This document shows positions 2,976 through 8,123 of a DNA stretch of 64,000 nucleotides, piece after piece; position 1 is the first letter of the stretch; every line of letters starts with the position of its first letter. The notes below the pieces were generated by a model. The model ran no database searches, was not told the DNA's origin, and was given only the letters and a program-made list of their open reading frames with translations. The position numbers and the translations under genes were made by a program. Source of the DNA: Gemmatimonadota bacterium (GTDB taxonomy: Bacteria; Gemmatimonadota; Gemmatimonadetes; Longimicrobiales; Gaopeijiaceae); the NCBI GenBank assembly GCA_040882465.1, contig JBBEBG010000035.1:1-64000 (forward strand), read 5' to 3'.

Positions 2976-4328
2976 TCAGGCAATAGCGTTCGCAGCGTTC
3001 CTGACGAGGGTGCGGAGTTGGTCGGGATCCGGACCGAGCCGGACGGTGGCCTCTTCCCCTTTGCGGATCGCCGCGATTGCTTCGGAAGAGGTGCCTTCCC
3101 CCTCCCAATCGCCGCGCGCGGGGGGCGCCTGGCCGGTGGCCCGCAACACGGTTTCGGGGAACTTGGCGGGATCGGCCGTAGAGAGGATGAGTCCCGGTAC
3201 GGCGCCGCGCCCCTGGCGTACTTCCTCCAGCCCGAGGTATCCCACGGCGGTGTGGGGATCCATGAGGTAATTCCGCTCCTGGTGGACCCGACCCATCGCC
3301 TCGAGGACCTCCGCGTCGTCGTGCCGGGTCGGAGTGATCCGCTCACGGAGCGCGGGGATGTCCCGCTCGTAAATCGTGAGGATCCGCTCGAGGTTGCTCG
3401 GGCGCGCCACATCCATGGCGCTCGACAGCGTTTCGAGGGAAGGCCCTTCCGGGAGGCGGCCGGCCTCGAGGTAACGCCGCATCGCGTCGTTCGCGTTGCT
3501 CGCGGCCACGAAGTGCGAGATCGGGATCCCGATCGACTCCGCGATGATTCCGGCGGTGAGGTTGCCGAGATTCCCCGAGGGAACGCTCACGACCAGATTT
3601 TCGCGTTCCGCGTCGGGGAGAGATGCCCACCCGTACGCGTAATAAAAGGACTGAGGGATCAGGCGTCCCACGTTCACGGAGTTCGCGGATGTGAGCGTTC
3701 CCGGGAATCCCTTCCCCGGATCCGCGAGGACTTCCTTGACCATCCTCTGGCAATCGTCGAAGGAACCCTCCACTTCGACCGGGATCACCGAGCCGGAGCT
3801 CGCGGGGGCCTGGATCTGGCGGCGCTGGACGTCGCTGATGCGATTCCGGGGAAAAAGGACGACCGCCTTCACGCCCTCGAGGCCTCGGACGGCCTCGGCG
3901 ACGGCTCCGCCGGTGTCTCCGGAAGTCGCCACGAGGATCAATACCGGACCCTCGTCCACCTTCCGCAGGTGCGGGAGGAGTCGGGCGAGAAAGCGGGCCC
4001 CGAAGTCCTTGAACGACCCGGTCGGGCCGTGGAAGAGCTCGAGGATCCAGGTGCGCTCTCCCACGGGAACCACGGGAACGGGGAAGTCGAAGGCGCCGCG
4101 CACGATCTCCCGAACCACATCGCTCCCCAGCATCGGCTCGAGGAGGAGGAGGGCAATCCGCTCCGCGACTTCGGGGAAGGGAAGGCCGACCAGCGCGTCG
4201 CGCTCGCGCGACGACAGCCGAGGAAGGGATACGGGAAGGTAGAGCGCCCCACTCGGGGAAGGGTCTTCGAGCACCGCGTGGCGGAGCGAGACTTCCTCGA
4301 AGGGCGGCCGGGTCGAAACGAGTCGCAT
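2976..4328 (-). CDS. thrC: Threonine synthase
   Basis: PLP-dependent enzyme converting O-phosphohomoserine to threonine, the last step of the pathway; 450 residues from the ATG at 4328. The N-terminal part (STRPPFEEVSLRHAVLEDPS) is typical of the E. coli-type enzyme. The PLP lysine lies in HGPTGSFKDFGARF and the phosphate-binding loop is ATSGDTGGAV, with SVPSGNLGNLTAG later. Longer upstream starts to 4538 would run through thrB and add a basic, low-complexity tail, so I rejected them. The start lies 13 nt after the thrB stop. It is the third gene of thrA-thrB-thrC, controlled by the leader attenuator at 7914-8123. Confidence 0.95.
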   Translation of the reverse strand: MRLVSTRPPFEEVSLRHAVLEDPSPSGALYLPVSLPRLSSRERDALVGLPFPEVAERIALLLLEPMLGSDVVREIVRGAFDFPVPVVPVGERTWILELFHGPTGSFKDFGARFLARLLPHLRKVDEGPVLILVATSGDTGGAVAEAVRGLEGVKAVVLFPRNRISDVQRRQIQAPASSGSVIPVEVEGSFDDCQRMVKEVLADPGKGFPGTLTSANSVNVGRLIPQSFYYAYGWASLPDAERENLVVSVPSGNLGNLTAGIIAESIGIPISHFVAASNANDAMRRYLEAGRLPEGPSLETLSSAMDVARPSNLERILTIYERDIPALRERITPTRHDDAEVLEAMGRVHQERNYLMDPHTAVGYLGLEEVRQGRGAVPGLILSTADPAKFPETVLRATGQAPPARGDWEGEGTSSEAIAAIRKGEEATVRLGPDPDQLRTLVRNAANAIA

Positions 4329-4341
4329 CACCGTCGGGTCG

Positions 4342-5304
4342 TCAGCTGTCGGCGGCGCGATCATGGACGATGCGGGCACCGCGCGGCGAGACTGGAGAGA
4401 GGAAGAGCCGCGCTTCAACATCCGAAGCCTTCGCGAAGGCTTCGCGCATCGCCGCGCCGACGCGTTCGGCGCTTTCGGGAGTGCGGCAGAGGGACATGAT
4501 CGAAGGGCCCGCCCCCGAGATTCCGCATCCGACGGCACCCGCCCGGAGCGCCGCTGCCCGCACCGCGGCGAATCCGGGGATCCGGTGCGCCCGGTGCGGC
4601 TCCGCGATTCGATCCTCGAGGGAGTCGGCGACGAGTTCCCAGTCTCCGCTGTGCAGCCCCTGCACGAACGCGGACGTGTTCCCCCACTGGATGACCGCCG
4701 CGCTCAGCGGAACCGCGCTTCCGATCGCTACGCGCCCTTCGCGGGTGCTCATCTCGACGTTGGGATGGAGGAGCGCGACCGAGAGGCCGTGAGGAATGGG
4801 AAGCCTGACGACCGGCCGGACACGCGAAGGGCGGACCAGAAGTAGGCCGCCGAGGAGGGCAGGGGCGATGTTGTCGAGGTGCGCGCCGCCCGCCGCCATC
4901 CCTTCTCCAGCCAAGGCACACTCGAGAAGAGTCTCCGGTGACGAACGGGTGTCGAGGAGCGCGTCCGCTGCGAAGACGCCGGCCACCGAGCTCGCAGCGC
5001 TTCCCCCCATCCCGCCGGAGAGGGGAAGGCCCTTCTCCAGAACGATCTCGATTCCCTCTTTGCGTCCGGTCGCCTGAAGGAGCGCCTGGATGGCGACGGT
5101 GGCAGAGTTCTTGTCGGCCTCGGTGGGAAGGCGGCCTCCATCTCCCTCGATCCTGGTGATCCTCACTCCCGGGGATGCGCTGAGCCGGGCGCGCACGAGG
5201 TCACCCGGGGATTCGAGCGCGAGCCCGAAAGTGTCGAAGCCGCAGATGACGTTTCCGACGGTGGCCGGAGCGAAGGCCGCGACCTCCCGCTCAGGTGGCA
5301 TCAA
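4342..5304 (-). CDS. thrB: Homoserine kinase
   Basis: GHMP-family kinase phosphorylating homoserine with ATP; 320 residues, slightly longer than the E. coli enzyme. The N-terminus carries FAPATVGNVICGFDTFGLAL, the GHMP phosphate-binding loop is PLSGGMGGSAASSVAG, and the C-terminal region contains GCGISGAGPSIMSL, the third GHMP motif. The ATG overlaps the 3' end of thrA by 14 bp and the stop is 13 nt before thrC, so translation is probably coupled through the operon. The initial Met-Met leaves the exact start uncertain by one codon. Confidence 0.95.
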   Translation of the reverse strand: MMPPEREVAAFAPATVGNVICGFDTFGLALESPGDLVRARLSASPGVRITRIEGDGGRLPTEADKNSATVAIQALLQATGRKEGIEIVLEKGLPLSGGMGGSAASSVAGVFAADALLDTRSSPETLLECALAGEGMAAGGAHLDNIAPALLGGLLLVRPSRVRPVVRLPIPHGLSVALLHPNVEMSTREGRVAIGSAVPLSAAVIQWGNTSAFVQGLHSGDWELVADSLEDRIAEPHRAHRIPGFAAVRAAALRAGAVGCGISGAGPSIMSLCRTPESAERVGAAMREAFAKASDVEARLFLSPVSPRGARIVHDRAADS

Positions 5305-7852
5305 CGGGCTTCCGGAGGCCGTGGGTCACACGTTCGGAAGCGGCCAGGAGATCCGACATGAGCCCAGCGGCCGTGACGTTCGGTCCCGCGCCCGGACCCT
5401 GAATGAGCATGGGGTGGCGCGAGTAACGCATGGATCGGATCTCGAGGACGTTTTCCGTTCCGCGAATCCGCGCGGCCGGCCGGTCGAGGGGGACCTCGAC
5501 CATGCGGATTTCCGCGCCGTTCGCGTCCACTCGCCCCACGGTCGCGAGGCGGCATCCTTTTTCCGTGGCCGCGCGGCTGCGTTCGGCGATTTCGGCATCG
5601 AGCGCGGGGAGCCCCGCCATGAAGGCCTCGACCGACTCCGCCGCGAGGAGCTCCGCGGGCAGGATCGGCTCGACGCGGACGTCTTCCGGTTCGAGCTCCC
5701 AGCCGGCGGTCCTCGCCAGAATCACGAGCTTTCGGAGCACGTCCATGAGCCCCAAGTCTTCCCTGGGATCGGGTTCGGAGATCCCGCGCTCCTTGGCCTC
5801 TTTCACCGCCTCGCTGAAGGGCCGGCCGCGGGCCACCTCATCGAAGAGGAAGGTGAGCGTGCCGGAGAGGACGCCCTCCATGACCTCGATGCGGTCTCCG
5901 CTTCGCCGCTGTTCGGCGACGGTGCGTATGATCGGGAGGCCCGCGCCCACCGTCGTTTCGTAATGGATCCCTCCACCCCCCGCGGCGGCGCGGAAAATCG
6001 CGCGGTACTCTTCGATCGAGCGGGAGAGCGCGATCTTATTCGCGGTCACGACCGCGGCGCCGGAGCGGAGAAACTCCTGATACCGGCTCGCGACATCCGC
6101 GCTGGCGGTACAGTCCACGATCACGAGGGGATCGCCGGTCACGACCGACTCGACCACGTTTTTCGACGTGTGTTTCCCTTCGGCGAGGAGCTCGCGCCAG
6201 CGCCCCGGATCGAGTCCTTCGAGGTCCACCACCGCCCGCCCGCTCTGCGAGATGCCGACGAGGACCGGAAGAAGGCCGTGGGGAGCGAGCGCCTCCTTTC
6301 CGTGGTCCCGCAGCTGTTCGAGCAGCGCCCCTCCGACGCTCCCCACGCCCAGAACGACGATTCGCACCGGGTGCGGCTCCCCGGGGGGGGCGAAAAAGGC
6401 GCGATGCACGGCGCGGAGCGCGGGTCCTTCCTGTTCCGCGGCGACCACCCAGGAGATGTTCCGTTCCGAAGAGCCCTGCGCGACGGCATGCACGTTGACC
6501 TTGGCCGCCCCGAGGGTCGAAAAGAGCCTTCCGGCGATCCCCGGCGTGTCGCGCATTCCCTCTCCCACGATCGCCAGGATCGAACAACGCTCCTCGACGA
6601 AGGGGTCGCGGAGGAGCCCCGCGACCCGCTCGCGTCGGAACTCCGCCTGGATCGCGGCCAGGGCCTTCGAGAGGCGGCTCCGGGCAACGGCGAACGAAAC
6701 GGTGTGTGCGCTCGAATCCTGGGTGAAGAGGAGGGAATCCACCTCCGCCTGGCCCAGCGCCCGGAAGAGCCGCTCGCACGCTTCGACGACTCCCACCTGT
6801 TCGACCCCCTCCAGCCGGATCAGCGCCACGTCGCGAATCGCGGACATTCCCCGGACCGGTCGGTACGGGTCGGCCGGGAGGCGGCCCACCACGAGCGTAC
6901 CGGGGAGGGTGGGATCCAGCGTGCTCCGAATGCGGAGCGGGATCCCCGCCTTTCGAGCGGGTTCGACGGCGGGTGCGCACATGACTTTGGCCCCGAAGTG
7001 GGCCAGCTCGAGCAACTCTTCGTAACCGATCTCGCGGACGGGGGTGGCGTCCGGCACGCTCCGCGGGTCGGCCGTGAGCACGCCGTCCACATCGGTCCAG
7101 ATCTCGATTCCTTCCGCGGCGAGGGCGGAGCCGAGAAGGGTCGCGGTGTAATCCGAAGCGCCGCGGCCGAGCGTGGTTGTTTCGCCCTCGGGGGTCGCCC
7201 CGATGAAGCCGGTCACGACGGGCACTCCCACCGAACCGGGTAGGTGTGCGCGGATCAATGCGTTCGAAGCATCGAGGTCTACGCGGGCGGAGCCGAACCG
7301 GGCGTCGGTGCGGATGAGTTGGCGCGCGTCCACCGAACGGGAGGGCGTACCGCGCGCTCGCAAAGCCGCCGCGACCAGGATCGAGGAGAGGATCTCGCCG
7401 AAGGAGAGCATCCGGTCCCGGGTCCGCGGACTGCACTCCCCGAGGAGCTGCGCGCCCCGAGCTAGCTTCCGGAGTTCCTCGAAGGCTTCCCTGATCGTCT
7501 TTTGGAGCGCGGCGAGCTCCTCCGGTAGGGCGACCCCTTTCAGGATGCCCAGGTGGCGCTCCTCGAGCTTCCGCAGGCGGTCTTCGTAACCCCCGTTTCC
7601 CCGTCCCGCGAGATCGGCGGCGGCGTCGAGCTCGTTTGTCGTCCCCCCCACCGCTGAGACCACGACGATCGGGGTCACCTCCTTCCGCGCTTCTTCCACC
7701 AGCCCCGCCACGGCGCGAATCCGATCCGCGTCGGCGACCGAGCTTCCGCCGAATTTGAGGACCCGGACGCCGCGGCCTCCCGTGGGCACGGGCGCGCGCG
7801 CCGGCGATCCCTCGGGGGGATGGATCGGCTTCGGCGGGGCTTCCTGTTTCAC
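5291..7852 (-). CDS. thrA: Bifunctional aspartokinase / homoserine dehydrogenase
   Basis: An 853-residue fusion catalysing the first and third steps from aspartate to threonine. After a 29-residue Pro/Ala-rich extension, the aspartokinase domain starts at VLKFGGSSVADADRI and includes RGASDYTATLLGSAL and WTDVDGVLTADPR (to about residue 300). Two ACT-type regulatory segments follow (about 330-480), where threonine would inhibit. The homoserine dehydrogenase part begins at VVLGVGSVGGALLEQL, with DCTASADV, VTANKIAL, ETTVGAGLPI and EPDPREDLGLMDVLRKL. The start is a GTG at 7852 with a weak purine stretch; no better start is in frame. First structural gene of the thr operon, 61 nt downstream of the leader terminator. 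All key nucleotide-binding motifs are present. Confidence 0.96.
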   Translation of the reverse strand: MKQEAPPKPIHPPEGSPARAPVPTGGRGVRVLKFGGSSVADADRIRAVAGLVEEARKEVTPIVVVSAVGGTTNELDAAADLAGRGNGGYEDRLRKLEERHLGILKGVALPEELAALQKTIREAFEELRKLARGAQLLGECSPRTRDRMLSFGEILSSILVAAALRARGTPSRSVDARQLIRTDARFGSARVDLDASNALIRAHLPGSVGVPVVTGFIGATPEGETTTLGRGASDYTATLLGSALAAEGIEIWTDVDGVLTADPRSVPDATPVREIGYEELLELAHFGAKVMCAPAVEPARKAGIPLRIRSTLDPTLPGTLVVGRLPADPYRPVRGMSAIRDVALIRLEGVEQVGVVEACERLFRALGQAEVDSLLFTQDSSAHTVSFAVARSRLSKALAAIQAEFRRERVAGLLRDPFVEERCSILAIVGEGMRDTPGIAGRLFSTLGAAKVNVHAVAQGSSERNISWVVAAEQEGPALRAVHRAFFAPPGEPHPVRIVVLGVGSVGGALLEQLRDHGKEALAPHGLLPVLVGISQSGRAVVDLEGLDPGRWRELLAEGKHTSKNVVESVVTGDPLVIVDCTASADVASRYQEFLRSGAAVVTANKIALSRSIEEYRAIFRAAAGGGGIHYETTVGAGLPIIRTVAEQRRSGDRIEVMEGVLSGTLTFLFDEVARGRPFSEAVKEAKERGISEPDPREDLGLMDVLRKLVILARTAGWELEPEDVRVEPILPAELLAAESVEAFMAGLPALDAEIAERSRAATEKGCRLATVGRVDANGAEIRMVEVPLDRPAARIRGTENVLEIRSMRYSRHPMLIQGPGAGPNVTAAGLMSDLLAASERVTHGLRKPVDAT

Positions 7853-7913: not shown

Positions 7914-7950
7914 AAAAAAAAACGACCCCGACCTTCGAGAGGGCCGGGGT
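7914..7950 (-). terminator. Intrinsic terminator of the thr operon attenuator
   Basis: On the minus strand a 9-bp GC-rich stem (7942-7950 with 7925-7933, one G-U pair, loop about 8 nt) is followed within 2 nt by nine consecutive T residues (7922-7914). It sits between the leader peptide stop (7988) and thrA (7852), where a transcription attenuator is expected. The segment at 8005-8011 (minus strand GGCCGGG) is a perfect complement of CCCGGCC in the upstream arm of the stem. It can therefore act as an antiterminator when a ribosome stalls on the Thr codons. Confidence 0.85.
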
Positions 7951-7987
7951 GGGGCGTCGGGTTCCGATTCGAGGGACGAAACTCAGA

Positions 7988-8095
7988 TCAAACTCGGGCG
8001 CCTTCCCGGCCGGTCCTCCGGGTCGTGGAGGTCGTCGGACGGCACGTCGTCGTCTCGAGTCGGATCGAGCTTCCCTGGGCAGTCATAGTGGACAT
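7988..8095 (-). CDS. thrL: Threonine operon leader peptide (attenuator)
   Basis: A 35-codon ORF starting at the ATG at 8095 and ending TGA at 7988. Ten of its 35 residues are Thr, clustered as TTT (residues 15-17), TTSTT (21-25) and T28. It lies 38 nt upstream of a strong intrinsic terminator and precedes thrA. The regulatory logic is classical: when charged tRNA-Thr is scarce the ribosome stalls on the Thr codons and an antiterminator forms; when plentiful it reaches the stop, covers 8005-8011 and the terminator forms. The start is ambiguous. ATG 8095 has GAGG six nt upstream, whereas ATG 8086 (32 residues, nine Thr) would be the very 5' end of a transcript from the promoter at 8094-8123. 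Only the leader role is claimed; the peptide itself probably has none. Confidence 0.85.
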   Translation of the reverse strand: MSTMTAQGSSIRLETTTCRPTTSTTRRTGREGARV

Positions 8096-8123
8096 TAATC
8101 GCCTCGGTTCTGGTGGGTGTCAA
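8094..8123 (-). promoter_or_regulatory. Probable promoter of the thr operon
   Basis: A consensus -35 TTGACA (8123-8118) is followed after 18 bp by ATTAAT (8099-8094, four of six matches to the -10 consensus). Counting 7 nt downstream puts the transcript start at or next to the A of the ATG at 8086, so the leader peptide may be translated from a leaderless mRNA. If an upstream promoter is used instead, ATG 8095 with its GAGG would serve. I see no other promoter in 8124-8300. Confidence 0.6.

Follow-up and report, generated by a model that had tools for sequence, protein, structure and literature searches.

Does an uncultured Gemmatimonadota bacterium govern its threonine-synthesis genes with an attenuator of the type known from Escherichia coli thrL, and if so, where does the switch come from? 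Almost all threonine attenuators on record come from Gammaproteobacteria. In 2013, a survey with Rfam models counted 45 Thr leaders; it proposed a gammaproteobacterial origin of amino-acid attenuators, followed by few transfers (PMC3766115). On the minus strand of the window, by which we mean the whole 64,000-nt stretch of DNA that was analysed, the threonine-synthesis genes are preceded by the parts of a thrL-type leader. An earlier note on this stretch had proposed the thrL mechanism in a Gemmatimonadota-like window. The affiliation is supported by ThrA, which is 67-68 % identical to that of a named Gemmatimonadetes MAG in the same family. The mechanism is supported as well: because of the anatomy of the locus, the thrABC genes downstream, the recurrence of Thr codons in relatives, a leader-terminator complementarity above that of shuffled sequences and a ribosome-position model, a thrL-type attenuator is the best explanation, and thrABC is in all likelihood controlled by ribosome-mediated transcription attenuation.

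Architecture of the leader upstream of thrABC

The leader lies between thrABC and a divergently transcribed rhomboid protease gene. The locus comprises the following features:

8118..8123, minus strand: -35 hexamer TTGACA, with the same spacing kept upstream of thrA in relatives
8095..8100, minus strand: -10 hexamer GATTAA, with a 17-nt spacer to the -35 hexamer; GATAAA in four relatives
7988..8086, minus strand: leader ORF MTAQGSSIRLETTTCRPTTSTTRRTGREGARV and stop, 32 codons with nine Thr and one Ile, starting 8 nt past the -10 hexamer
8045..8053, minus strand: first Thr cluster, codons 12-14 (ACG ACG ACG), where a modelled stall suppresses the terminator
8021..8035, minus strand: second Thr cluster T-T-S-T-T, codons 18-22, with a T-S-T core common to leaders L023-L026
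8015..8031, minus strand: hairpin CCTCC-ACGACCC-GGAGG within the leader ORF, immediately ahead of the antiterminator 5' strand
7999..8011, minus strand: predicted antiterminator 5' strand GGCCGGG-AA-GGCG, from duplex energy compared with shuffles
7942..7956, minus strand: predicted antiterminator 3' strand CGCC-(CCAC)-CCCGGCC, which shares bases with the terminator 5' arm
7925..7950, minus strand: intrinsic terminator stem-loop ACCCCGGCC-CTCTCGAA-GGTCGGGGT, 9 bp, arms ACCCCGGCC and GGTCGGGGT
7914..7922, minus strand: T9 tract, with CG between the stem and the T's
5291..7852, minus strand: thrA, bifunctional aspartate kinase / homoserine dehydrogenase I, NF006959 over its cut-off
4342..5304, minus strand: thrB, homoserine kinase, over the NCBIfam cut-off
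2976..4538, minus strand: thrC, threonine synthase, over the NCBIfam cut-off; the true start is probably inside the ORF

All parts named in the earlier note are present, among them the TTGACA promoter element, the 9-bp stem followed by nine T, and the complementarity of 8011-8005 (GGCCGGG) to the terminator 5' arm, which is an exact 7-bp match to CCCGGCC at 7948-7942. The antiterminator is in fact longer, since GGCG (8002-7999) can form a second helix with CGCC (7956-7953) beyond the 7-bp one. Taken alone, GATTAA is a weak match to TATAAT; its position is conserved in relatives. The leader ORF had been described as 35 codons with ten Thr in tight clusters. The ORF and its clusters are present, and its start and Thr count need correction. 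Two in-frame ATGs exist, at 8095 (35 codons, ten Thr) and at 8086 (32 codons, nine Thr), and the former shares the last base of the -10 hexamer. It is thus upstream of the likely transcription start, so that the usable start, and very likely the true one, is 8086. The stop codon is a TGA at 7990-7988, 135 nt from thrA.

A short ORF rich in codons for the end product lies between the promoter and the first gene, an intrinsic terminator sits between this ORF and thrA, and the antiterminator pairing excludes the terminator and overlaps the end of the leader. On all features that can be read from sequence, with the exception of compensatory change, the leader thus appears to be a member of the class of ribosome-mediated attenuators.

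An ordinary terminator next to a Thr-rich ORF that is a mere product of ACG/ACC-rich DNA would mimic such an arrangement. The genome is GC-rich, about six terminator-like sites per 8 kb are expected by chance, and Thr makes up 6.8 % of the residues in random small ORFs. At this local frequency, the probability of at least 9 Thr in 31 codons is 1.5e-4. Both strands of the window together hold 1,341 small ORFs (10-60 aa), which we also tested: only the thrA leader reaches 6 Thr in 10 residues, and among those with at least 5 Thr in ten residues it is the only one that precedes a terminator, which makes the pair of ORF and terminator unique in the window. Furthermore, the nearest upstream gene (rhomboid protease) is divergent, so the hairpin ends no other gene.

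Threonine leaders in related genomes

ThrA searches covered the family, order and class of the window together with named genomes, and the upstream regions, all brought into the same orientation, were scanned with a single rule that asks for an ATG ORF with four or more Thr in ten residues and then for a terminator after the ORF. A Thr-clustered ATG ORF was present in 14 of the 53 thrA/AK upstream regions of the order, 13 of them also with a terminator, compared with 4/53 and 0/53 in the reverse-strand control. Elsewhere in the class, 2/60 upstream regions had such an ORF and 0/60 a terminator after it, and no Thr leader was found upstream of thrA in the Cytophaga, Saprospiraceae, Treponema and Acidobacteriota relatives. 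One of the 13 terminator-bearing cases (G035, L040), a 45-codon ORF outside the promoter layout, looks like a chance case. For one leader of the 14 (L025) the rule returned no terminator, although inspection by eye shows T7 and a hairpin with slight imperfections.

The Thr leaders with terminators span three families and several unrelated sequence designs. Design A comprises the window, G032, G055, G023 and G050, and more loosely G001; design B is found in G067, G028 and G053 (for example MLTTTRTTTITGPHFGG and MMRITAMTTTITGPRFR), and design C in families f2 and f3 (for example MTSAAICTTCTTTTTTTRVTG, MRHAATRRTTTLTATTRSTG and MHALRAGTTYTTTTTRVTTTTG). Leaders of relatives read MLTTTRTTTITGPHF in G067, MTSAAICTTCTTTTTTTRVTG in G132, MHALRAGTTYTTTTTRVTTTTG in G147 and MITIHANIRNIITTFRLTTSTT in G050; those of G023 and G050 add Ile, like E. 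coli ThrL. In the f2 leaders, the terminator 3' arm (CACGGGCCG) is repeated in the leader, which is hence able to pair with the 5' arm. In L027/L003, promoter and terminator are kept and the leader is down to four scattered Thr codons, so that it appears to be decayed.

This recurrence across the order relative to the reverse-strand controls, and the persistence of the same Thr code in different sequences of three families, make an origin of the window leader by chance very improbable. As a separate observation, L060 (G135, upstream of thrA) retains an f2-type terminator with its Thr codons out of frame of the ATG, which may reflect decay or an assembly indel. The CCTCC/GGAGG-type hairpin in the leader ORF (8031-8015 in the window) is kept in L023-L026 and matches the anti-SD and SD cores; it is a possible protector or pause hairpin.

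Leader-terminator pairing and the predicted switch

In each of 15 leaders, we took the best duplex that the leader ORF forms with the terminator 5' arm and set it against those from 1,000 dinucleotide-shuffled versions of the leader. In the window, the duplex reaches -22.3 kcal/mol versus -15.9 kcal/mol for the shuffles (p 0.026). Values of p < 0.03 were obtained for seven of the 15 leaders, and the combined Fisher p of ~1e-10 is overstated because the sequences are related and not independent. Complementarity of the leader to the terminator arm is kept between unrelated designs. A plain fold of the whole window leader is similar to that of shuffles (z -0.10), a single-structure fold being uninformative for a two-state switch.

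The earlier note had called for a comparison upstream of thrA with compensatory changes in both helices. Thr codons and leader-terminator pairing do recur, and the column-wise analysis of seven close leaders revealed no double changes. One stem pair varies between AU, GU and GC among them, and the distal antiterminator helix is in a different register in L025/L026. Since the stems are almost invariant in this close clade, covariation is silent rather than contrary.

In a model of the switch, the footprint of a ribosome was placed on each codon in turn and the equilibrium fold was calculated. With the A-site in Thr codons 12-14, the modelled terminator probability in the window is 3-6 %; at codon 20 it is 97 %, and it keeps this value up to the stop. 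The E. coli K-12 thrL control gave 3-16 % in part of the Thr/Ile run, then 99-100 % to the stop. Five further leaders (L025, L026, L035, L042, L045) switch like the window in outline and L024 is ambiguous. In the remaining eight (L023, L027, L044, L055, L058, L059, L062, L063), the terminator is favoured at nearly all ribosome positions at equilibrium, and the antiterminator forms only in a transcript truncated before the terminator 3' arm. Such a truncated co-transcriptional fold would follow the order of events in the cell, yet it is a weaker test of the switch.

These folds, several of which hardly ever leave the terminator state, would also suit a control in which the ribosome position governs Rho access or the translation of thrA and not an antiterminator. 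Against this stand the intrinsic terminator with T tract in nearly all leaders and the leader strand that is complementary to the terminator arm above shuffles; a direct coupling of leader and thrA is unlikely because of the 135 nt between them. We regard this alternative, like an origin by chance, as very improbable. An RNA that binds a ligand or protein (riboswitch, T-box or similar) and holds the ORF by accident is more improbable still, as the Rfam scan at strict and permissive settings returned nothing credible in the window or 20 relatives and the Thr codons persist while sequence and structure differ between clades, even though GTGTGATCTGAG is conserved both around and after the stop codon in L023, L025 and L026 and, less exactly, in the window.

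The analysis shows the parts of the attenuator, their recurrence and complementarity and the equilibrium model; where transcription begins, that the ORF is translated, how the steps are timed and how the switch responds to threonine are inferred as follows. RNA polymerase would begin at or beside the A of ATG 8086 and the ribosome would load on a leaderless message. If charged Thr-tRNA ran short, the ribosome would stall in the Thr clusters and leave 8011-7999 (GGCCGGG-AA-GGCG) free to pair with 7956-7942 as soon as this is made, so that the terminator 5' arm would be occupied and transcription would read through into thrA. With ample threonine, the ribosome at the stop codon would cover the antiterminator 5' strand, terminator 7950-7925 would form and transcription would end in the T tract. 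We have high confidence that the leader is predicted correctly to work like thrL. With E. coli thrL/thrLABC (Rfam RF00506) it shares Thr and Ile codons, the downstream order thrA-thrB-thrC, an alternative antiterminator, a GC-rich terminator with T tract and the same modelled switch. It differs in length (32 codons versus 21 in E. coli) and bears no recognisable sequence kinship.

Probable leaderless layout, origins and further candidate leaders

The start codon in the window lies at or beside the predicted 5' end of the transcript, unlike E. coli thrL, which has an untranslated stretch ahead of its ATG. The distance from the end of the -10 element to the leader ATG is 6-8 nt in 13 of the 15 leaders, if the earlier of the two ATGs in G147 is used; L044 and L045 lack a clear promoter. 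This short distance suggests a leaderless, or nearly leaderless, message. An independent hint that starts at such a distance may serve leaderless translation comes from genus g12 (L029-L034), where, in five of nine genomes (MIKPNHPYPIRVM...), 6-7 nt separate the promoter known from the Thr leader and the thrA ATG, and leader and terminator are gone, as if thrA had become leaderless by their deletion. By its ThrA, g12 is sister to L027, the relative with the decayed leader. The attenuator RNA of Sinorhizobium meliloti trpL likewise begins with the ATG of its leader ORF (PMC7298713); the layout, predicted in our case, is alike, whereas that system concerns tryptophan and Alphaproteobacteria. A leaderless layout implies immediate initiation by the regulatory ribosome and opens the question of how transcription and translation are timed in attenuators.

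Mapping of the attenuator onto the ThrA tree requires four changes, gains or losses, at least three of which are forced by well-supported branches. As the f2 ThrA is placed elsewhere in the tree than that of the window and the leader sequences are unrelated, more than one origin of the threonine leader within the order is likely, though not proven. Neither in the window nor in relatives did the Thr_leader covariance model (RF00506) give a match above its gathering score; the leader is not a member of this family. The Gemmatimonadota switch apparently evolved separately from that of E. coli, and the repeated occurrence of threonine leaders without sequence kinship in a second phylum points to convergence. 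It also shows that model-based annotation misses such elements. The leaders have no match in any Rfam family and are too short for most gene callers.

Leader-peptide attenuators outside Gammaproteobacteria were predicted in Actinobacteria by genome comparison for trp, ilvB and leuS, none of them for threonine (PMC1262725). Among the papers searched, none joins attenuation, leader peptides and Gemmatimonadota; threonine attenuators may already have been reported from other phyla. The mechanism is known, while the lineage, the leaderless layout and the probable independent origins appear to be new.

Threonine is not the only candidate in this genome. A candidate His leader (MITHARKHLHTHRRRSRTGRVEVGVRA; L136, G000:C33) precedes hisG, with a terminator with T9, and its modelled switch works at the first His codons. 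Across the order, 31 genomes were compared (L136 and L145-L174): 28 have a His-rich ORF ahead of hisG, and in 24 a terminator follows it by a simple rule; the reverse-strand control yielded two His-rich ORFs, neither with a terminator. These hisG leaders carry His runs, are candidate leaderless attenuators and mostly have strong GC terminators. Upstream of leuA (L143, G000:C21), a candidate Leu attenuator (MTIVLFGVLSATFGLLGLLLV..., MTIVLFGVLSATFGLLGLLLVSEGLR...) with a GC-rich hairpin and T8 has a longer 5' leader. No such leader was found for ilvB and two anthranilate-synthase-type genes of the same genome. Attenuation looks like a general strategy in the order, and the candidate His and Leu leaders thereby raise the prior for the threonine case. 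We see slightly better than even chances for a broader picture, in which the order runs Thr, His and perhaps Leu synthesis largely by leaderless attenuators independent of the proteobacterial ones, the Thr switch was invented more than once, and one sister clade lost the attenuator, so that its promoter was joined directly to a leaderless thrA.

Upstream of aspartokinase genes, two short ORFs are each followed by a strong terminator, one with Met, Thr and Lys codons (MVHRSNSMIMCTTRKKAHTKMC...; L068, G007) and one with Lys codons (MFVFATDTAKREKPKAAS...; L071, G119); they are possibly attenuators for other amino acids of the aspartate family.
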